This document shows positions 15,871 to 25,132 of a stretch of 64,000 nt of DNA, piece after piece. Under the pieces are notes generated by a model. The model was given only the letters and a program-made list of their open reading frames with translations. It was not told the origin of the DNA and did no database searches. Within the stretch, counting starts at the first letter, position 1, and every line of letters begins with the position of its first letter. The position numbers and the translations under genes were made by a program. Origin of the DNA: Oscillospiraceae bacterium (GTDB lineage: Bacteria > Bacillota > Clostridia > Oscillospirales > Acutalibacteraceae); NCBI GenBank assembly GCA_012520505.1, contig JAAYOC010000026.1, forward strand, positions 1 to 64,000, read 5' to 3'.

Positions 15871-16419
15871 TTAAACCTTTTTCTTCTCTGTTGTACTAAG
15901 GTTTATGTATTCTGATTTAATTCTACTGAATATAGCTTTATCCATTGCCAGGATTATTGGGATTTGAATGATAAATAGCGGAATTACTTGAATAAACCTT
16001 GAGTAGACTATTGACATGTATACTGCATTTCCTGATGTAAAATAAATCCAGTAAGATGTTAAAAGTAAACTTAAGATAAATTCATTGATAAATGCTGCCA
16101 ATAGTACACGTGGAAAAGTTACTTTTTTGTAAAGTAAGATTCCATATACTAAACCTTTAAGTGTACATGTCAACGTATAGCCCGGGAAATATGGACCAAA
16201 CGGAAATAATGTGGCCGCAATAAAGTCCCCTATGCCACCGATTATGGTAGATTTTACCGGTCCCAGTAGTGTTGCAGCTATTACTAATGGTATAAAGCTT
16301 AATGCTATTTTAAGATTCCATGACTTAAATGCAGCAAAACGGTCAAGAACCACATACATTGTGATGAGCATACCCATCATTGCAATGTCGAGTGTTGTAA
16401 ATTTAAATATATTTTTCAT
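15871..16419 (-). CDS. folT: folate ECF transporter S component
   Basis: A 182-residue membrane protein with about six hydrophobic segments, matching the folate-specific S component of energy-coupling-factor transporters (FolT): TTLDIAMMGMLITMYVVLDR at the start and IGGIGDFIAATLFPFGPYFPGYTLT in the middle. It needs a shared EcfAA'T module, not present here. The assignment is strongly supported by the tetrahydrofolate riboswitch directly upstream. It follows a methyl-THF:corrinoid methyltransferase gene, so folate supply is linked to the methyl-transfer pathway. Confidence 0.9.
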   Translation of the reverse strand: MKNIFKFTTLDIAMMGMLITMYVVLDRFAAFKSWNLKIALSFIPLVIAATLLGPVKSTIIGGIGDFIAATLFPFGPYFPGYTLTCTLKGLVYGILLYKKVTFPRVLLAAFINEFILSLLLTSYWIYFTSGNAVYMSIVYSRFIQVIPLFIIQIPIILAMDKAIFSRIKSEYINLSTTEKKKV

Positions 16420-16426
16420 TTTTTCA

Positions 16427-16526
16427 CCTCAGTGGACGCGGAAAATACATCGCAGAGCTTCAGTCTTCGGTCGGCGAACAACTTCCCATTTCACCGCAAC
16501 TTAACGCGTACTTTCCTACTCTGAGT
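16427..16526 (-). ncRNA. tetrahydrofolate (THF-I, folT) riboswitch
   Basis: Read on the minus strand, the 5' untranslated region contains the THF-I landmarks in order: GAGTAGG, GCGTTAAGT, GAAATGGGAAGTTG, CCGACCGAAG and the closing GCGTCCACTGAGG. The last segment includes the folT ribosome binding site (GAGGTG at 16426-16431), so ligand binding should hide it and block translation. No separate terminator is visible. No obvious promoter lies in the 42 bases between the preceding gene and the aptamer, so it may sit inside a longer transcript. Confidence 0.9.
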
Positions 16527-16568
16527 TTACCCAAAATTTGGGAACCCTTGGTTTATATGCGTACAAAA

Positions 16569-17384
16569 TTAATCTTTCTTTATAGGACCTATTTCACCTT
16601 TCCTATAAGCATTTGTATACTTACGGCAATGTTTATCTTTACCTATGAGAATATTAGTTGCCAACATAAGTGCTTTTAGGTCTCTATTAGTTGTATCTCC
16701 AATAAATGAATCAAGTCCTGCATCCATTGCAAGTGTGAGGAAAGCCATATTAAGTGCCTTCTTCACCGGAAGAGTAAATGAAACATTTGAAAGAGCACCG
16801 GTAATAATTGTATTTGGATACCTCTCTTTTATCATTCTAATTGCTTTACAAAATTCAATTGCAGTATCGTTACGAGTTGATGCATCGAAGATGAGTAAAT
16901 CGAGGAAGAGTCTATCTTCTGTTACACCGTATTCTGCAGCTCTTTCAATAATTTTGAATGCAAGTTCAGCTTTTTGTTCTGCCGTGTAAGAAACTCCTAC
17001 ATCGCCACCGGAACAAAGAGCTACAGCCTTCCACTCCGGATTATCTCTAAGGAGAGGAAAAAGAAGTTCGCATTTGTTTCCCTCAAGAGAGATTGAGTTT
17101 ATGAGTCCGGGTTCTTTAACACGTGGAAAAACTTTTAAAATAATTTCCGGATCCGGAGAGTCAACACAAAGTGGTATTGTGTTAACTTCCTGAACTGTAT
17201 CAATAAGCCAACAAAGTGCTTCATATTCAATGTCTGCATCTGTTGAAGCACAAACATCAAGATAAGAAACACCTGCAGTTTCCTGCATTCTAACTAATTC
17301 TTTAATGTATTCTGCATCACGGTTAGCAATTGCAACACCGGTTTTTGGAACTGCACCATTAATTTTTTCACCAATTACAATCAT
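16569..17384 (-). CDS. methyltetrahydrofolate:corrinoid methyltransferase (MeTr/MtrH-like)
   Basis: A 271-residue pterin-binding TIM-barrel protein of the AcsE/MtrH/MtqA-type group, which moves a methyl group between a corrinoid protein and tetrahydrofolate. Seen: the start IVIGEKINGAVPKTG, AGVSYLDVCAST, IPLCVDSPDP, GLINSISLEG and GALSNVSFTLP, all typical of the pterin domain (Asp and Asn contacting the pterin). It begins one base after the stop of the corrinoid protein gene, so the two are coupled. It is most likely the second methyltransferase of a demethylation system. Confidence 0.9.
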   Translation of the reverse strand: MIVIGEKINGAVPKTGVAIANRDAEYIKELVRMQETAGVSYLDVCASTDADIEYEALCWLIDTVQEVNTIPLCVDSPDPEIILKVFPRVKEPGLINSISLEGNKCELLFPLLRDNPEWKAVALCSGGDVGVSYTAEQKAELAFKIIERAAEYGVTEDRLFLDLLIFDASTRNDTAIEFCKAIRMIKERYPNTIITGALSNVSFTLPVKKALNMAFLTLAMDAGLDSFIGDTTNRDLKALMLATNILIGKDKHCRKYTNAYRKGEIGPIKKD

Positions 17385-17385
17385 T

Positions 17386-18024
17386 TTACATACCCGCCCA
17401 TCCCTTACAGATGTTTACAGAATCAGCTGGTGAATGTGCCCAAGCATCCGCTTTCATAGCTTCACAAGCTTCAGCAGAAACAGGGTTTCCACCAATAAGA
17501 ATCTTAACATCATCACGCATACCGGCAGCTGTGAAAGCTTCTACACAAGCCTTCATTGAATCAAGAGCAAGAGTTAAAACACCTGTAAGTGCAATGATTT
17601 TAATTCCCTGCTCTTTTGCCGTGTTAACGATTTTTTCATGTGGTACATCAATACCGAGGTCAACAACTTCAAAGCCGGCAGCTTCAAAGAAAGATTTTAC
17701 GATATTCTTTCCAATATCATGGAGGTCATCTTTAACAGTAGCAAGAAGAATCTTTTCTGAAGAACCTCCTTTTGAATCGCCACCAAGTGCAGAAGAGAGT
17801 GTCTGTACAGCATCTGTCATAATCTCGCCTGCATAAATGAGGTCAGAAACAAAATATTCACCATCAGCAAAACGATCTCCGACAATGTTCATACCTTCTG
17901 AACAAGCATCAACAGCAGCCTGAGCTTCTCCTCCGCCTTCTTCCATAACTTGGTCAATGATTTCTACAACGATATCTTCTTCAAGGTCGCCCATAGCTTC
18001 TGTGAGTTTTTTTAGATCAACCAT
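17386..18024 (-). CDS. corrinoid (cobalamin-binding) methyl-carrier protein
   Basis: A 212-residue MtaC/MtbC-type protein: N-terminal helical cap domain (residues 1-85) and a Rossmann B12-binding domain with the His-on motif DLHDIGKN, then TGVLTLALDSM and GGNPV that hold the lower ligand tail. It carries methyl groups from a substrate methyltransferase to the MeTr partner encoded immediately downstream. The ATG at 18024 follows AGGAGGAA; a longer in-frame start at 18057 is unlikely. Confidence 0.93.
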   Translation of the reverse strand: MVDLKKLTEAMGDLEEDIVVEIIDQVMEEGGGEAQAAVDACSEGMNIVGDRFADGEYFVSDLIYAGEIMTDAVQTLSSALGGDSKGGSSEKILLATVKDDLHDIGKNIVKSFFEAAGFEVVDLGIDVPHEKIVNTAKEQGIKIIALTGVLTLALDSMKACVEAFTAAGMRDDVKILIGGNPVSAEACEAMKADAWAHSPADSVNICKGWAGM

Positions 18025-18167
18025 TTTTACTTTCCTCCTAACACTAATACAAAACAAATTTCAATAAATTTTGCCTCATAATATTTTCCAATAAGCACTA
18101 CATCCTATTAAAACATAAAAAATAATTAATTAAAAGCATAAAAGTATAGCAAATTGATATATTATAT

Positions 18168-18182
18168 GCTACAATTTGTAGC
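18168..18182. promoter_or_regulatory. perfect palindrome between divergent operons, candidate regulator site
   Basis: GCTACAA-T-TTGTAGC is a perfect 7-bp-arm palindrome in the 267-base gap between the corrinoid-protein operon (leftward) and the RACo-PucR operon (rightward). A further CAAATTG lies at 18150-18156. It is a candidate binding site for the PucR-type regulator encoded at 19899, by position only. Confidence 0.45.
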
Positions 18183-18291
18183 GTAATAAATAAGTGCCTG
18201 TACTGATTGATATTACTAGTGTTTTAAAACATTCTGAATTTGTTCATAATGTCCAACGCACAATTTTGAGCGACTAATTAGAGGTGTAAAA

Positions 18292-19887
18292 ATGAATTAC
18301 AATGTTACCTTTATGCCGGCGAATATTACCGTTTCCGTACCCGAAAACACAACCATAATGGATGCTGAAAGAATTGCAAAGCTGGGGTTTGAATACCCTT
18401 GCGGCGGTAATGGAATCTGTAACAAATGTGATGTTCAAATTGCTGTAAACGGCAAAACAACAGTTGTAAAATCATGTTCAACAATCATTTCATCGGATAT
18501 GATTGTAACTCTTAATATTTCTGAAAATACTGAAAAGGTATTAACAGAAAATCTTAATTTTTCTTGTGAAATTAACTCCCCTGTTTCAGTTTTACATGAG
18601 ATGATGCCAAATGCAAAAGCTATCCTTTTCAATGATGAAGTAATAGATGTAAGGAAAGATGATTTTACCCCTTTAGGTGTAGCATTTGATATTGGCACAA
18701 CTACTGTAGCTGCGTATCTTTTAAACCTTTTTACAGGTGAACAAATTGATACAGTCGGCAGTTTGAATAACCAGGTGAAATACGGTAGCGATGTTATATC
18801 TCGTTGTACGTATGTTGTCAAAAATGGCGTAGAAGAAATGCAAAAATGTATTCTCAATCAAGCTGAAAGTATGATTGCTGAACTGCTTAAAAAGAATAAC
18901 AAATCTCCGGGCGATGTATACCTCGTTTCTATTGTAGGAAATACTTGTATGCAACATATTTTTGCAGGACTTGATACAACTTCACTTGTAACTGTACCAT
19001 ATGTGCCGGCAGTTAAAAAAGCTATTACGGATAATGCAAAAAAATATCTTAAATCTGTAAACGAAAATGCACGAATTGTGATTTTACCGGTAATTGCCGG
19101 TTTTATTGGTGCTGACACTGTTGCTGTAGCTCTTGCTACAAGGTTTTATCAAAAAAAAGAGATTTCTCTCCTTCTTGATATCGGTACTAATGGTGAAATA
19201 GTACTTGGAAATTCAGATAGATGGGTTGCTTGTTCAACTGCATCCGGGCCTGCTTTTGAAGGTGCAAAAATTGTAAAAGGAATGCGTGCTGCATCAGGTG
19301 CTATTGACCACGCATACTACGAAAATAGTGAATTTAAATACACAACCATTGACAGTTCCCCTGCTGTTGGTATTTGTGGTTCCGGTCTTATTGATATCGT
19401 TAAGGTTTTACTCGATGAAGGGGTCATTCTGCCGACCGGGCGGTTCAATAAGCGGTATGAACGGTCGTTAAGAGATAGAATGACTACCGTTGATACCGAA
19501 ACTCGCTTTAATATTACTGAAGATGTTTATATAACTCAGAAGGATATTCGAGAAGTACAACTTGCAAAAGGTGCCATTGCTGCCGGAATTGAAATTTTAA
19601 CTCAAGTTTTAGATATTTCTTATACTGACATTGAAAAAGTATACATCGCAGGGGCTTTCGGTAACTTTATGAAACCATCTAGTATGTGTGGAATAAAACT
19701 CGTGCCACCTGAACTTGAAGAAAAAATCGTACCGGTTGGAAATGCTGCCGGAAACGGAGCAAAGCTCGCTCTTTTATCTAAAGAAGAGTTAAAAAATGCA
19801 ACTTTTGTTTCTGAAAAAACTGAATTTATTGAACTTGCTTCACACAAGAATTTCCAGGAAATATTTATTAAAAATCTTGATTTTTAA
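18292..19887 (+). CDS. corrinoid activation protein, RACo type (2Fe-2S and ASKHA domains)
   Basis: Reductive activator that uses ATP to return accidentally oxidised Co(II) corrinoid to Co(I). Seen: an N-terminal plant-type [2Fe-2S] ferredoxin domain with Cys 37, 43, 46 and 62 (CGGNGICNKC pattern), a linker, then an ASKHA ATPase domain with FDIGTTTVAAYLL, LLDIGTNGEIVLG, CSTASGPAFEGA and YIAGAFGNF. Length 531 is slightly shorter than the roughly 600-640 common in the family. AGAGGTG precedes the ATG. It shares an operon with the PucR regulator. Confidence 0.93.
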   Translation: MNYNVTFMPANITVSVPENTTIMDAERIAKLGFEYPCGGNGICNKCDVQIAVNGKTTVVKSCSTIISSDMIVTLNISENTEKVLTENLNFSCEINSPVSVLHEMMPNAKAILFNDEVIDVRKDDFTPLGVAFDIGTTTVAAYLLNLFTGEQIDTVGSLNNQVKYGSDVISRCTYVVKNGVEEMQKCILNQAESMIAELLKKNNKSPGDVYLVSIVGNTCMQHIFAGLDTTSLVTVPYVPAVKKAITDNAKKYLKSVNENARIVILPVIAGFIGADTVAVALATRFYQKKEISLLLDIGTNGEIVLGNSDRWVACSTASGPAFEGAKIVKGMRAASGAIDHAYYENSEFKYTTIDSSPAVGICGSGLIDIVKVLLDEGVILPTGRFNKRYERSLRDRMTTVDTETRFNITEDVYITQKDIREVQLAKGAIAAGIEILTQVLDISYTDIEKVYIAGAFGNFMKPSSMCGIKLVPPELEEKIVPVGNAAGNGAKLALLSKEELKNATFVSEKTEFIELASHKNFQEIFIKNLDF

Positions 19888-19898
19888 GGAGGCCTGTT

Positions 19899-21467
19899 AT
19901 GGTTATTACATCATCTATGTTGTTTTATCAACTTGCGAAAAAATGTGAACTTAAAACTAAAAAGGCCCCTTCGGACAAATTACAAATTAAAAATGTTAGA
20001 GTTTATAGTGGTAAAACCAAAGTAGGTACTCTTTATCTTGTGGACTGTAACACACTAGATATGCCTATATCTTCTAAAAAGCCGGTAACTTTTATTTTCA
20101 TTAATGCTGAATCGCTCGATACTACATATATTCCCAAAAATTGTGACTATGCCATTTTTTCTAATATTAATAACACAGTGGAGCTTTTTGAGGTTGTTTC
20201 TGATTCTATTTCTGAACTCCAAGAATGGGACTGCAAACTAAAAGATGCTTCAGCATTACGTCATTCACTCAATGAGTTTAGCGAGCTTTCAAAAGAAATA
20301 ATTAATGAACCAATATATATTTTGACACGTAATCTTTCACTTCTTCACTTAACAGATACAAATAAAAATTCTGATAACAAAACTGTAGAAATTGATTATG
20401 CAAACGAACTGTTGGCTGATGAAGAGTATCATGAAACTTCAAAAACAATAGATACCTACATTTACACTGACGGTGTTGGGAACAAATATCTCTGTATAAA
20501 TATATTTTCCGGTTCGCGATATATTGCTAGAGTTATGTCTCCCAAAAAGACTTATGCAGATACAATAGATGAAGGTCAAGTTCAGTTGCTACGACATTTC
20601 TTTAAATATTTAAGACAAGTTTATTTAAGATACACAGATGATCCACTTATCAAGAGTTCTTCAGATAAGCTTCATCAATTAATCTATTCTATGCTTTTTA
20701 ATCCCGAAGTTTTTGATGCTACTGAAAGCAGTCTTATTCTCCAAAACTATGGTTGGAATGAGAAACATACTTATTCTGTCATTAAATTCAATTTCTTTAA
20801 AAACGCAGTATGGGATGAAATAACAGAATATATTTGTGTCAAACTTGAAGAAACTTGGTCAAACTCTTGCGCAGTTATGCACAATGAAGAAATTATATGG
20901 GTTTTTAACCACTCAGTTTCTAAACAATCAATTAATGAACGTAAATTTTATCATGTTCTTGCATATTTCGTGCGTGATTTTGTCTGTAAGGCCGGTGTGA
21001 GCGATAAGTTTAACGATTTAAACAATCTCCCTTCTTATCTTTTACAGGCTGAAACGGCACTTAAAATCGGTCAAAAGAGTAGTCCTGATAAATGGTATTT
21101 CAAATTCTCAAATTATGCTCTTGATTATATGTTTGATAGGATTGTCGGAGAATTTAGTTTTGACCAACTTATACATAGAGGTGTTCGTAAACTCATTGAA
21201 TATGATAAAAAAAATGCAACTGAGTATTTAAACACACTCCGTTGCTTCCTATATAACAACTGTAATTCAACTCATACTGCCGATGAACTTTATGTTCATA
21301 GAACAACTCTTATCAGGCGTATTGATAAAATTCAAGAAATTAGTAACATAAATTTCGAAGATAGAGAAACACAAATTTATCTAGTAATTTCCTTCTGGAT
21401 TCTTGAAAATTTAGGATATAAATTTACAGAACTTAATTTAAATCAGATAGAAGATCCTTCGCAATAA
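19899..21467 (+). CDS. PucR/CdaR-family helix-turn-helix regulator
   Basis: A 522-residue cytoplasmic protein with the C-terminal PucR helix-turn-helix: a Cys/Asn-rich helix followed by ELYVHRTTLIRRIDKIQ near residue 465. The N-terminal two thirds look like a sensory region, with a GGDEF-like degenerate middle as in CdaR-type regulators. AAGGAGG precedes the ATG, 11 bases after the RACo gene. It is the obvious candidate activator of the surrounding methyl-transfer operons. Its last 35 bases overlap the 3' end of the convergent corrinoid protein gene. Confidence 0.85.
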   Translation: MVITSSMLFYQLAKKCELKTKKAPSDKLQIKNVRVYSGKTKVGTLYLVDCNTLDMPISSKKPVTFIFINAESLDTTYIPKNCDYAIFSNINNTVELFEVVSDSISELQEWDCKLKDASALRHSLNEFSELSKEIINEPIYILTRNLSLLHLTDTNKNSDNKTVEIDYANELLADEEYHETSKTIDTYIYTDGVGNKYLCINIFSGSRYIARVMSPKKTYADTIDEGQVQLLRHFFKYLRQVYLRYTDDPLIKSSSDKLHQLIYSMLFNPEVFDATESSLILQNYGWNEKHTYSVIKFNFFKNAVWDEITEYICVKLEETWSNSCAVMHNEEIIWVFNHSVSKQSINERKFYHVLAYFVRDFVCKAGVSDKFNDLNNLPSYLLQAETALKIGQKSSPDKWYFKFSNYALDYMFDRIVGEFSFDQLIHRGVRKLIEYDKKNATEYLNTLRCFLYNNCNSTHTADELYVHRTTLIRRIDKIQEISNINFEDRETQIYLVISFWILENLGYKFTELNLNQIEDPSQ

Positions 21468-22071
21468 CAGCAGTAAGAGTAGCAGTTGTTCCAAAAGCAT
21501 CTGCTCCCAGCTCTTTTGCAATTTCAGCACTTATAGCAGCTCCGCCGACAATAATTTTTACTTTGTCGCGGAGCTTCTCTTTTTCAATCAAATCAATCGT
21601 CGCTTTAACATTAGAAACTGTTGAATCAAGTGAAGCTGAAATTGCTACCACCTGAACATTTTCATTTTCTTTAATTGCGTCAACAAAAATTTCAGGTGGA
21701 ACATCTATTCCAAGGTCATGCACTTTAAATCCAACACTTTCAAGCATCAGTATAAGAAGACCTTTTCCAATATCATGAAGGTCACCTTGAGCCATACCTA
21801 CAACAATTTCTCCAATATAAGTTGTATCTTTTCCTTCAATTAAAGGAGTCAAGTACGCAATCCCCTTCTTAATAGTTTGTGCCGAAGAAAACATATCTGA
21901 CACCTGGATTTTGCCACTATGAAACATTTCCCCTACTTTTATCATTGATTCAACCATTTTATCTATAAGACATACAGGACTAGCCCCTTTTGACAGTGCA
22001 TCCACTATTGCAGGGATAATCTCTTTATTTTTTCCATTTTCAATGATTAGTTGCAAGGGCTCTTTTTTCAT
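21433..22071 (-). CDS. second corrinoid methyl-carrier protein
   Basis: A 212-residue MtaC/MtbC-type B12 protein, paralogous to the one at 17386. Seen: the cap domain, DLHDIGKGLL as the His-on motif, ISASLDSTVSN, and GGAAISAE. It starts in a TAATG junction with the stop of the GroEL-like gene, so its translation is coupled to that chaperonin. The 3' end overlaps the convergent regulator gene by 35 bases. It is either an alternative carrier for a second methyl donor or the direct partner of the UroD-type methyltransferase further right. Confidence 0.92.
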   Translation of the reverse strand: MKKEPLQLIIENGKNKEIIPAIVDALSKGASPVCLIDKMVESMIKVGEMFHSGKIQVSDMFSSAQTIKKGIAYLTPLIEGKDTTYIGEIVVGMAQGDLHDIGKGLLILMLESVGFKVHDLGIDVPPEIFVDAIKENENVQVVAISASLDSTVSNVKATIDLIEKEKLRDKVKIIVGGAAISAEIAKELGADAFGTTATLTAVIAKDLLSDLN

Positions 22072-23669
22072 TATTCTTCATCTTTCCCTTCTGATTCAAC
22101 TATTGCGGCACCAGAAGTTATAAAGATGCCTGCAATACTCACAGCATTTACAAAAGAATGAATAATTACGTAGGTTGGATCTATTATTTGAAGTTTAAAT
22201 AAATCGCCATAGGAATCATTTAATGCATCATAACCATAGTTTAAATTTTTGTTTTCTCTAAGTGTGTTCACGATGACACTGCCTTCAACACCGCAGTTTT
22301 TAGCAATTTGTCGGATTGGTTCAGATAGAACTGTAAGAATGATATTCGCACCGGTCTTTTCGTCTCCTGAAAGAGTGTCTACGTACTCAGTTAATACTTT
22401 TTCACAATTTAGAAGTGCTTTCCCGCCACCCGGTACTACACCAAATTTAATAGCATTTGCACAGGCATGCATAGCATCTTCTATTCTATATTTGCGTTCA
22501 AACATCTCAAGTTCAGATGTGCCACCAACTTCTATAACAGCCATGGCAGAGTTCAGCATACCTAAAGTTTGTTCAAGCTTATCTATTTCATACAACTGCT
22601 GTTCAGTTTTAAGTCTTTCTGTAATCTGTGATTTTAAGGTTTCTACTTCCGGTGCATCAGGACAGGCAGGGCCAAAAAGAGTTGTAATATTTTTTTCTAC
22701 AAGGATTTTATCGACCTTACCACAAGCCTCAAGGCCAAAATTAGACATATCATAACCGAGATCCGGATCTATAACTGTTGCTCCACAAAGAGCTGCAATT
22801 GCACGAAGATTCCTATCTCTTGTGTCTCCGTATCCCGGAGCTTTAATTGCAGAAACTTTGAGTATCTTTTGCTCAGCATTTGCAGCAAGGGCTGAAAGAG
22901 CTTCTCCTTTAATGTCTTTTGCAATTATAAATAAAGCTTTATCTTGCTGTACACAATCTTCAAGGAGCTTATAAATCTCTTTAATCTCAGTTATTTCACC
23001 CGTATAAACAAAAACTGCAACATCTGTATATTCTCCAATGTTTTTACCGGGATCAGTCAAAAAATATCTGGATAAATAACCGGAATCAAGCCTACAACCA
23101 TGAGATATAACAAGCTTTGTTTCAGCCATTTGAGTAATTTGTATGTTGACAATAGCTGTATTGCCTAATTCTTCATATATTTGATAAAACAACTCCCCTA
23201 TTTCAGGGTCGTTTCCACCTGAAACAGTTGCAACATTTTTTATAATATCAAGGCTGATATCTGTTTTTGAAAAGCTTTTTAAACTGTCTACCACTACAGC
23301 AGTAGCTTTGTTTAAACCTCTTTTTATAAAAGCTTCATTAGCACCGGCTGCTATATTTTTAACCGCTTCATTTATTATTCCTTTTGCAAGAACTACTGAA
23401 CCGGTTGTTCCATCGCCGGTAGCTTTATTAGATTTAATTGCCGCCTCTCTTAGTATGGTGGCACCTAAATTTTCAAATTTGTCTGAAAGAGTTATCTGTC
23501 TGGCAATTGCATAGCCATCATTAGTAACCAAAGGAACATCGTATTCTTGTGAAAATACAGCATTTCTTCCCTTTGGACCAAATGTAGCACAAACTGCATC
23601 AGCAACTTTGTTCATACCAATCAGCATTTTATTAGTTGCTTCACTTCCAAATAAAATCTCTTTTGCCAT
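22071..23669 (-). CDS. divergent GroEL (Hsp60) paralogue in a corrinoid operon
   Basis: A full-length group I chaperonin, 532 residues from the ATG at 23669 (GGGAG 11 bases upstream; an in-frame TTG at 23687 is unlikely). ATPase residues are kept: GPKGRN, the Asp in TNDG (51), GDGTT with Asp 86, and IEDA. It differs from housekeeping GroEL: there is no GGM-repeat tail (it ends ESEGKDEE), no groES beside it and no CIRCE element in front. In the apical domain the residues matching E. coli Val263 and Val264 are Ala-Ala (GEALSALAANA), Pro202 is Arg (GYLSRYF) and Leu234 is Tyr. It is co-transcribed with a corrinoid protein, suggesting a specialised client. Confidence 0.9.
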   Translation of the reverse strand: MAKEILFGSEATNKMLIGMNKVADAVCATFGPKGRNAVFSQEYDVPLVTNDGYAIARQITLSDKFENLGATILREAAIKSNKATGDGTTGSVVLAKGIINEAVKNIAAGANEAFIKRGLNKATAVVVDSLKSFSKTDISLDIIKNVATVSGGNDPEIGELFYQIYEELGNTAIVNIQITQMAETKLVISHGCRLDSGYLSRYFLTDPGKNIGEYTDVAVFVYTGEITEIKEIYKLLEDCVQQDKALFIIAKDIKGEALSALAANAEQKILKVSAIKAPGYGDTRDRNLRAIAALCGATVIDPDLGYDMSNFGLEACGKVDKILVEKNITTLFGPACPDAPEVETLKSQITERLKTEQQLYEIDKLEQTLGMLNSAMAVIEVGGTSELEMFERKYRIEDAMHACANAIKFGVVPGGGKALLNCEKVLTEYVDTLSGDEKTGANIILTVLSEPIRQIAKNCGVEGSVIVNTLRENKNLNYGYDALNDSYGDLFKLQIIDPTYVIIHSFVNAVSIAGIFITSGAAIVESEGKDEE

Positions 23670-23714
23670 AATAAATATTGCTCCCAAAAATAATGTTTAG
23701 TATTACAGTTTTGT

Positions 23715-23743
23715 ATTATAACATTTTACCAAAATAAATTAAA
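23715..23743 (-). promoter_or_regulatory. sigma-A-like promoter of the groEL-like operon
   Basis: On the minus strand TTTAAT (23738-23743) and TATAAT (23715-23720) are 17 bases apart, just downstream of a strong terminator. No CIRCE inverted repeat (TTAGCACTC-N9-GAGTGCTAA) is present, so HrcA control is not expected. Confidence 0.55.
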
Positions 23744-23774
23744 GAGTAGTTACAGATGCCTGTAACTACTCTTT
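23741..23774. terminator. strong hairpin terminator separating two methyl-transfer operons
   Basis: Perfect 15-bp stem AAAGAGTAGTTACAG (23741-23755 with 23760-23774) around ATGC, followed on the minus strand by TTTAATTTATTTT. It ends the transcript of the UroD-type methyltransferase and the small protein. Confidence 0.85.
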
Positions 23775-23783
23775 TCAACGCAC

Positions 23784-23921
23784 CTAACCGTCAATGAGAA
23801 TCTTTATAAGTAAAGGACCCATTATTTTTTTCATAGGTCTTGCCCATAAGGGCATAATTTTGTTAAGAAGCTTATTAAACCCTTCCGGATAGGATGCATA
23901 TGGCCAAGTATTTTTATCCAT
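23784..23921 (-). CDS. 45-residue basic protein behind the UroD-type methyltransferase
   Basis: A short frame on the minus strand: ATG at 23921, TAG ending at 23784, 45 codons. A strong GGGAGG lies 7 bases before the ATG and overlaps the stop of the preceding methyltransferase gene, which argues for real translation. The product starts MDKNTWPYASYPEGFNKLL, then has several Met, Trp, Pro and Lys residues and a hydrophobic, basic C-terminal half. It is followed by a terminator, so it forms a two-gene operon with the methyltransferase. I recognise no family. Confidence 0.65.
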   Translation of the reverse strand: MDKNTWPYASYPEGFNKLLNKIMPLWARPMKKIMGPLLIKILIDG

Positions 23922-23935
23922 AATCTGTCCTCCCT

Positions 23936-25132
23936 TTATAATTCATAGGTTGAAACAAACTCACAAACAGCCTTAAGGTTTTCAGATTTACAGTCATTTC
24001 TATAAGATAACATTTTATCTTCTGAGAGAATAAAACCGCCATCTGACCCGAGCTCGTCAATAAGTTTTTTCGTATATTCTACACATTCTTCAGGAGAGGC
24101 ATTACCAAGCAGCTGTGTTGTAAGGCCACCAATAATAGCTACATTTGGAAGAGCTTCTCTAATTTCCCAAGGATTATCGTTTTCAAGATGAAATGCAAGT
24201 GAACCTTTCTTGAAATCTGTAAAATGGTCAACAAACGAACCAATTTTACCTTCTGTAAAGATTCGAGGACATTTACCCTTTGTTTCATATGCTTTGAGCA
24301 ATGGTTCAAGATAACACCAATAAAGTTCATCAAACTGTTTTGGATTTAGAATGTTTTGTGAAAGCATTATAAGAGATGCATCAAAACAATACTTCATATC
24401 CGGGCCATAATCGCTTTTAAGCACCTTGTCTATAATTGGCTTTGTCTCTTTTTCATGCCAAGCATCACAAAACTCTTTTAACTCATCAAAATTACGCCGC
24501 AGTGCGATTGAAAGATTTCGGATACCAAGGAGGTTTGTTATAGCTTCTTCAATAGCAAAGTTAATTGTACCTTTCATTGGATTATTTGGCGCGCCGGATG
24601 GAAGCCCATACTTGTTACATACTGAGTTCATCTTAAAGATAAACATTATGTATTTTATGTATTCTTTCCAAACATTTTTCCAAGTATCTACGGATTTTTC
24701 ATAAAAATCAGGAAATTTCTCCGGAAGAGCAACTTCCCAAGCAAATTTTTCTTTGTCTTCAATATATTCAAGAAGTCTGTCTACCGGGCAGTAAGCATGG
24801 TCATTAATGCCGACAACTTCCGCATCGTAGTAGTAATAACCATTTTCACCCATTCCAAAAGCCTCAGTAACATTAAACTGATTTCGAATACCTATATCTA
24901 TTAGCACATCAATTGGATATGTGTCAAGAAACTTTACAACTACTTCTTCCATAACATCAAAGTTTGTCACGGCTTGATCTATTGTATAACCGGCATCAAA
25001 TATTTTCCATGTGACTATATTACCGTAATGTGAAATTCTATCAGGCTTTACCCAAGATTGAGCATCACGAAACAGCTTAACTCTATATTTTCGCAACTCC
25101 TTAGGTTTCATTGCCTTTTCGACTTCTCTCAT
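23936..25132 (-). CDS. uroporphyrinogen-decarboxylase-family methyltransferase
   Basis: A 398-residue UroD-fold protein like the substrate methyltransferases of corrinoid systems (MtaA/CmuA/O-demethylase relatives). Tetrapyrrole synthesis is unlikely, because the gene sits among corrinoid proteins and lacks the UroD N-terminal signature. The segment where MtaA/MtbA carry the zinc ligands HxC reads RIFTEGKIG and the later Cys is also absent (GGFILSEDKM), so it is not a thiol methyltransferase of the MtaA kind. It probably demethylates an unknown methylated donor onto a corrinoid protein. AAAGGAGG precedes the ATG. It has its own promoter with an operator-like palindrome. Confidence 0.85.
   Translation of the reverse strand: MREVEKAMKPKELRKYRVKLFRDAQSWVKPDRISHYGNIVTWKIFDAGYTIDQAVTNFDVMEEVVVKFLDTYPIDVLIDIGIRNQFNVTEAFGMGENGYYYYDAEVVGINDHAYCPVDRLLEYIEDKEKFAWEVALPEKFPDFYEKSVDTWKNVWKEYIKYIMFIFKMNSVCNKYGLPSGAPNNPMKGTINFAIEEAITNLLGIRNLSIALRRNFDELKEFCDAWHEKETKPIIDKVLKSDYGPDMKYCFDASLIMLSQNILNPKQFDELYWCYLEPLLKAYETKGKCPRIFTEGKIGSFVDHFTDFKKGSLAFHLENDNPWEIREALPNVAIIGGLTTQLLGNASPEECVEYTKKLIDELGSDGGFILSEDKMLSYRNDCKSENLKAVCEFVSTYEL

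Follow-up and report, generated by a model that had tools for sequence, protein, structure and literature searches.

Why should a bacterium keep a second GroEL and a protein of 45 residues among its genes for corrinoid-dependent methyl transfer? The question is raised by a locus at positions 15871-25132 of a 64,000-nucleotide stretch of Oscillospiraceae DNA (the window, which lies on contig C38 of a 1.69-Mb genome that is 95% complete), where the genes for a UroD-fold methyltransferase (UroD hereafter), a very small protein and a GroEL paralogue stand together with those for corrinoid proteins and their partners. We read the locus, with a probability of roughly two in three, as a corrinoid demethylation system in which UroD and the 45-residue protein would together act as methyltransferase I (MT I), the GroEL paralogue would be a dedicated chaperonin, and the methyl donor is left unassigned.

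All of the genes named in the initial annotation of this DNA were present where it had placed them, each belonging to the family that it had given, as judged by Pfam, NCBIfam and Rfam. The unit in fact begins with folT, at position 15871. Its features are the following (CP, corrinoid protein; MT II, methyltransferase II; THF, tetrahydrofolate).

15871..16419, minus strand: folT, FolT-family S component of an energy-coupling factor (ECF) folate transporter (TIGR04518, 111.8 bits, cut-off 60)
16428..16525, minus strand: THF riboswitch 5' of folT (RF01831, 73.3 bits, gathering score 36)
16569..17384, minus strand: MT II, methyl-THF:corrinoid methyltransferase, PF00809 enzyme (NF005719, 272.5 bits, cut-off 259)
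17386..18024, minus strand, ATG start: corrinoid protein CP1 (PF02607 and PF02310)
18292..19887, plus strand: RACo-type corrinoid activator (PF14574, PF17651, weak Fer2 match)
19899..21467, plus strand: PucR-type regulator, HTH_30 (PF13556)
21433..22071, minus strand: corrinoid protein CP2 (PF02607 and PF02310)
22071..23669, minus strand, ATG start: GroEL paralogue, Cpn60 (PF00118)
23741..23774, minus strand: 15-bp terminator-like hairpin 3' of the small gene, ahead of the GroEL paralogue gene (fold z -4.06)
23784..23921, minus strand: YPEG protein of 45 residues, a candidate small subunit of the UroD methyltransferase (14 loci share its core)
23936..25132, minus strand: UroD-fold methyltransferase, proposed MT I (PF01208, residues 241-394 only, 35 bits)

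With its B12-binding corrinoid proteins, a methyl-THF:corrinoid methyltransferase and a reductive activator, the locus has three of the constituents by which a corrinoid demethylation system is recognised, and its UroD-fold protein is a candidate for the fourth, MT I. The ATG starts given for CP1 and the GroEL paralogue are the likelier ones by their ribosome-binding sites, the list of open reading frames (ORFs) having TTG starts at 18057 and 23687, respectively. CP2 is 31% identical to CP1, and its start overlaps the 3' end of the GroEL paralogue gene. The division into four operons made in the initial annotation agrees with gene order and strand, except that, because the 15-bp hairpin follows the small gene, the GroEL paralogue and CP2 may be transcribed partly or wholly apart from the UroD and small genes.

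The gene set was then searched for in other genomes. Among 11 genomes of the genus, a UroD orthologue was found in eight, the window's included (at least 807.9 bits in each), and the same eight carried the GroEL paralogue beside it; the remaining three had neither, and no UroD-family match at E <= 1e-5 was found in them (completeness 77, 81 and 98%). An MT II orthologue (72% or more) was present in seven of the 11 genomes, the window's among them, and in the eighth locus-bearing genome, G567, the contig stops inside the PucR gene. The order UroD-small gene-GroEL paralogue//PucR-RACo//CP1-MT II-folT was common to the seven genus loci fetched, up to the limits of their contigs, with the exception of CP2, which was seen in the window's genome alone among the 11 when CP1 was the query. 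At E <= 1e-8 the CP1 orthologue was the sole CP1 match in six of the eight locus-bearing genomes, the window's genome (G000) having CP2 besides and G567, with its cut contig, yielding none. Within the genus the chaperonin is indeed tied to the methyl-transfer system, as had been proposed (eight of eight genomes against none of three, at the same locus).

Beyond the genus the picture changed. A scan of the genome collection with two short UroD patterns, which reaches close relatives only, gave 13 loci, seven of them (UroD identity 81-84%) with an adjoining GroEL paralogue and six (54-57%) in which none was found on the 6-19 kb stretches fetched. Among the named records with the closest UroDs are genomes from the gut of water buffalo, goat and horse, as well as two labelled Candidatus Limimonas. 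One distant locus, L068, is a contig of G166, from another genus of the same family. A small gene was present 3' of UroD in all six distant loci, some of which have MT II, corrinoid or RACo genes nearby. The joint occurrence of UroD, the small protein and the GroEL paralogue thus stood in the genus and was not seen on the fetched stretches of the distant loci, and the broader claim, that a chaperonin is a general part of such systems, was not borne out. Because the distant loci hold the core without the GroEL paralogue, the system looks like a core of UroD, small protein, corrinoid protein, MT II and RACo to which the chaperonin was added as an accessory in one genus.

The GroEL paralogue is 54-61% identical between the window and other species and 37% identical to the other GroEL of the window's genome, which has a GroES-like ORF in front (recognised by eye); a second GroEL was also found in at least five of the other seven locus-bearing genomes. 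The paralogue does not reach the equivalog cut-off of TIGR02348 for GroEL (487 versus 582.1 bits); among the NCBIfam GroEL subfamily models, it lies above the cut-offs of PRK12849, PRK00013, PRK12851 and PRK12850 and below that of PRK14104. Eight paralogues were compared with nine canonical GroELs (E. coli numbering) at positions that we take to serve client and GroES binding in the apical domain, the ATP site and a salt bridge. D52, D87, D398 and GDGTT were kept in all eight paralogues; at the ATP site, L31 and T91 differed in all eight, and N479 varied, likewise in the canonical GroELs. Among the eight apical positions compared, V263 was alanine in every paralogue, V264 and L234 were changed, and Y199, L237 and F204 were kept. 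The salt-bridge residues R197 and E255 were lost in 8/8, and so was the GGM tail, which 9/9 canonical GroELs kept in some form. No Cpn10 was found among the nine locus genes and no GroES match in loci L056-L075.

The paralogue is under purifying selection, with dN/dS values of 0.08-0.10 in three close pairs (rough values, dS being 1.0-1.25), for comparison with 0.03-0.04 for UroD, and its divergence was similar to that of RACo and PucR and larger than that of UroD, CP1 and MT II in three comparisons with the window. In a GroEL tree the paralogues formed one group with 100/100 support, joined to E. coli GroEL, which is another long branch; four rows (L030, L046, L049 and L052) made up an outlying group and were taken for antisense ORFs. 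Because the AlphaFold model was poor (pLDDT 58.6, pTM 0.49), nothing said here of the paralogue rests on a structure. Taken together, these observations suggest a chaperonin that probably still functions but on other clients, and that would most likely be dedicated to a protein of this locus.

The most serious alternative is that the paralogue serves as a second chaperonin of general use, which happens to lie in the locus and has no functional tie to methyl transfer. This would agree with the distant loci, whose fetched stretches hold the core without it, with its uncertain place in the GroEL tree, and with the hairpin that splits it from the UroD and small genes in the window. We nevertheless consider it unlikely, because co-occurrence with UroD was complete (8/8 versus 0/3), because its gene kept the same place, flanked by the small gene and PucR (CP2 intervening in the window), despite the 54-61% identity, and because another GroEL is already available in the window's genome and in most of the other locus-bearing ones. 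A chaperonin bound to a locus in this way offers a clean case for asking which client keeps a second GroEL.

Broader searches for the paralogue were also made. In a class-wide sample of 391 genomes, an eight-sequence profile found it at E <= 1e-162 in the window's genome alone; this sample and the order-wide one include few members of the genus, and rare paralogues may occur elsewhere. An order-wide search of 394 genomes with a two-sequence profile gave 92 genomes, that of the window among them, at E <= 1e-140, a threshold that was unusable because all of the other genomes scored at the level of canonical GroEL (494.7 bits at most, versus 1103). The apparent lack of a canonical GroEL in G569 and G570, with one GroEL match each, was dropped, since both assemblies are incomplete; in G569 one contig breaks off next to a UroD gene, of the type found near groESL in other genomes. 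A UroD-microprotein pair of the window's genome lies about 2.2 kb from its other GroEL and the GroES-like ORF (L016, 7591-9267 and 11466-13417), and in G565 (L120) a UroD of the same type is located about 6.7 kb from groESL.

Methoxylated aromatics and halomethanes are among the substrates that UroD-fold methyltransferases demethylate. The AlphaFold model of the window UroD (pLDDT 76, with low-confidence stretches at 91-98, 110-114 and 184-205) matched UroD decarboxylases and the Methanosarcina methyltransferase 4ay7 over about 300 residues (Z 18-19, 18.8 for 4ay7; rmsd 4-5). Its best sequence match in the PDB was CdmB, of the CdmBCA system compared below (E 4.6e-6), and no NCBIfam match was obtained at E <= 0.001. 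The initial annotation had described UroD as lacking the MtaA-type zinc ligands, and in agreement with this no H-x-C motif, which we take to be the MtaA-type zinc motif, occurs in the protein. It had also reported the lack of an MttB- or MtaB-like donor enzyme, and no such gene is present among the nine locus genes, the whole genome not having been searched for either.

Homology supports the route proposed earlier, from UroD as MT I through a corrinoid protein and MT II to THF with repair by RACo. In the mechanism that we favour, UroD with the 45-residue protein would transfer a methyl group from the donor to Co(I) of CP1, MT II would pass it from CP1 to THF, RACo would re-reduce spent cobalt, PucR would sense the substrate and the riboswitch-controlled FolT would import folate, the last four roles being predicted from their families. 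CdmB contains a network of hydrophobic channels, and haloalkanes were observed inside them (PMC13222342). By analogy, UroD might bind the donor and offer it to the Co(I) of CP1, and the microprotein could close the channel, form a dimer contact or dock CP1. Neither the initial annotation nor the locus genes assign a substrate; a plant-derived methoxyl compound is our most likely guess.

The same genes could in principle run in reverse, methyl-THF methylating a thiol or another nucleophile through CP1 and UroD as the MtaA types do with coenzyme M. The UroD fold shared with 4ay7 (Z 18.8) and a complete branch from formate to methyl-THF in the window's genome would suit such a direction. Thiol-activating MtaA types need the H-x-C motif, which the window UroD does not have, and RACo and PucR-type regulators are usual in catabolic systems, which makes the reverse run improbable.

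Related loci also inform on the transporter. The THF riboswitch was found in seven of the nine related loci searched, from six genus genomes, and was not found in the distant loci L064 and L068. The S component that follows it in L059 (18044-18646) and L060 (18080-18613) is only 25-32% identical to the window FolT, so that the transporter controlled by this riboswitch is either highly variable or exchanged for another.

What, then, is the 45-residue protein? Its core, SYP[ED]G..K......P...RP.KK....L......DG, is conserved in 14 loci, with some positions nearly invariant. Because six distant loci keep the small gene without a chaperonin, the small protein is not tied to the chaperonin; by its genomic distribution it goes with UroD, and the pairing recurs throughout a clade of UroD-fold proteins, which the initial annotation had missed. 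This pattern was analysed in 74 distinct ORFs of the UroD family, taken from the window and from related loci, some of them in 12 genomes of four other families (obtained from a class-wide search that 13 of 391 genomes matched, one being the window's own). An ORF of 35-90 amino acids with a ribosome-binding site was required within 30 nt 3' of the gene, for which five of the 74 had no room. Such a small ORF, of about 40-80 residues, followed 63 of the 69 UroD-family genes with room, at a distance of 7-20 nt (median 12), and only 4 of 306 controls, namely the other genes of at least 200 amino acids in the same loci (Fisher p 3e-59, the genes not being independent). Three of the six UroD genes without a small ORF are the first of tandem pairs (L114_10165, L115_1440 and L018_4502, the L018 pair overlapping in the ORF calls used), two are fused to one at the C-terminus (L163 and L165), and L023 has none. 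Loci L024, L025, L057 and L068 are outside this count, L057 and L068 repeating L017 and L021, and for L019 and L159 the wrong frame was taken in the count, a fitting small ORF being present.

When about 65 sequences were searched with a profile of seven free microproteins, the fused tails matched with E-values of 2.9e-10 and 4.7e-9. No Pfam match was found for six microproteins and no NCBIfam match for eight (ten different ones in all), nor any PDB sequence match to the window-type microprotein. The YP[ED]G motif was present in 21/21 microproteins of the subclade of the window UroD and in 0/42 of the others; because it is confined to that subclade, the type of microprotein follows the type of UroD. 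The gene pair is conserved, and its simplest reading is that the microprotein is the cognate small subunit of UroD, so that the two would form a single enzyme. That the small ORFs instead have a regulatory role, as leader or coupling peptides through whose translation the following gene is controlled, would fit their shortness, their place 7-20 nt past the UroD stop and the lack of a family for those tested (six in Pfam, eight in NCBIfam), but is very improbable given a conserved protein core, the fusion of such sequences to the C-terminus of some UroDs, which a leader role does not explain, and the small ORF of L020, where the next gene is on the opposite strand.

To place the trait on the UroD phylogeny, a tree of 92 UroDs was built, 20 rows of which came from a search with a piece of CdmB and were labelled by hand. 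A branch with 99/98 support separated 79 rows from 13. By a uniform rule, a small ORF followed 70 of the 76 genes with room on the first side, where three rows had no room, and the six lacking it were the three tandem-first genes, two fused ones and L184, whose ORF is at 36 nt. On the second side, with three more rows without room, none of the ten genes with room, CdmB included, had one, and one of the ten is fused (L181, a long branch). When first-side sequences were clustered at 50% identity, 27/27 clusters contained at least one free microprotein. This last count used the hand labels, in which L184 was counted positive at 36 nt (it forms a single-member cluster or shares one with other positives) and L193_1408 and L185_781 were labelled 'none' though a UroD follows. 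CdmB-piece UroDs that scored low against the window-type profile had no small ORF behind them. We read these results as a trait that follows one UroD clade, which would be a distinct group of corrinoid methyltransferases. Its members come from five or more families of Clostridia, and some genomes hold several of them. A large expansion of the fold was seen in G823, a genome of the class with 32 places matching the piece of CdmB.

Several observations weigh against this view of the clade and of the locus. The second side of the tree has long branches, and because the program warns of false joining, it may comprise more than a single group; L193_1408 and L185_781, which are among its ten genes with room, precede another UroD, like the tandem pairs of the first side. 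A 49-codon TTG frame lies 14 nt behind CdmB, with no ribosome-binding site, and was not seen behind its relative L173. The fusions belong to a different subclade (the YY type) or, in the case of L181, to a long branch that falls beyond the main clade, none being in the YPEG subclade of the window UroD. The microprotein types are diverse, the window profile reaching the YPEG types and, weakly, some beyond, and common descent of all types would go further than the profiles do. Relatives of the window UroD are patchy (13/391 class genomes), the fetched stretches of the distant loci have no chaperonin, and the hairpin leaves the chaperonin gene perhaps transcribed apart from UroD.

On balance we lean, by a small measure, towards a clade-wide family of two-subunit UroD-fold enzymes, each needing a cognate microprotein that would set the substrate channel or the docking of the corrinoid protein, with one gut genus having recruited a chaperonin in addition. 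The pairing of this UroD clade with microproteins is the most general result of the analysis. In the open-licence literature, as far as its texts were available, no paper was recognised on small proteins paired with UroD methyltransferases or on a chaperonin in a corrinoid methyltransferase locus, and such papers could exist. With the gene pair as a simple marker in the sequence, this clade can be told from CdmB-like UroDs. If the clade works only with its cognate partner, the large subunit may show no activity when assayed by itself in vitro, and a need of this kind, if true, could help to explain why many UroD-fold methyltransferases lack assigned substrates.

A fate for the methyl group is suggested by the window's genome, where one run of genes encodes FTHFS, cyclodeaminase, FolD, a MetV-like protein (a methylene-THF reductase C-terminal protein), MetF, a Pyr_redox protein (lipoamide dehydrogenase by position) and GcvH. 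A complete methyl branch was noted at the following place.

L202, 5040-11974: all of the Wood-Ljungdahl methyl branch, in a genome with no acetyl-CoA synthase (ACS) domain found

The domain of acetyl-CoA synthase, as part of carbon monoxide dehydrogenase/acetyl-CoA synthase (CODH/ACS), was present in 3 of the 11 genus genomes and was not found in that of the window, which is 95% complete. With the genes of the methyl branch and no ACS domain, methyl-THF could be oxidised there to formate, which would proceed through MetF/MetV, FolD, cyclodeaminase and formyl-THF ligase; the genes are present and the direction is inferred. An Acetobacterium woodii mutant oxidises the methyl group of glycine betaine to formate (PMC10284823). 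Some relatives look acetogenic. One genus genome has a CODH/ACS gene cluster at L203 2255-14211. The MT II search gave second matches of 763-769 amino acids, and a reading of these as methionine synthase was dropped: the one in G568 lay inside a CdhD protein (PF03599) of a CODH/ACS cluster.

At least one other UroD was found elsewhere in all eight locus-bearing genomes. Together with the single CP1 match in six of them, this suggests that the locus may act as a hub, its CP1, MT II and RACo serving further UroDs and several methyl donors. In L019, L117, L118, L119 and L121, a UroD-microprotein pair accompanies an AMP-ligase and an MFS transporter, and, up to the contig limits, genes for acyl-CoA dehydrogenase, electron-transferring flavoprotein (ETF) and CoA transferase (the genes of L117 and L118 were named by Pfam; EtfA, transporter and ligase were named by eye elsewhere). 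Such clusters recall, in our view, the caffeyl-CoA reductase cluster, and by this analogy they point, as a lead, to methoxylated phenylacrylates as substrates.

Compared with known systems, the chaperonin is like GroEL in being a whole-length Cpn60 member with the key ATPase residues, and unlike it in lying below the equivalog cut-off, in its missing GGM tail, in having no Cpn10 among the locus genes and in its changed apical face. The window UroD differs from the coenzyme M methyltransferases MtaA and MtbA in the zinc motif H-x-C, which we take these enzymes to carry. Both nonetheless have the UroD fold, and the type 1 mlp clusters resemble the locus in having a corrinoid protein and an activator nearby, whereas MT II, present in the window, is missing from the three mlp clusters that the report on them describes first (PMC10418091); type 1 clusters also combine the Mlp2 and Mlp3 UroD types, and the window locus has one UroD gene. 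In the CdmBCA system of Acetobacterium dehalogenans, a zinc-free UroD-fold MT I is joined by a corrinoid protein, an MT II that delivers to THF and an activator, a set that this locus shares with UroD as its putative MT I, and the main text of the paper contains no word that begins with chaperon- or GroEL, in contrast to the chaperonin of the window locus (PMC13222342). A protein with full identity to CdmB across 113 residues lies outside the microprotein clade and is not followed by a small ORF that has a ribosome-binding site, CdmB and the window UroD being on opposite sides of the 99/98 branch, the CdmB side long-branched. According to the same paper, MtvB, OdmB, VdmB and MtoB are MT I proteins of the UroD superfamily and O-demethylate methoxylated aromatics (PMC13222342).

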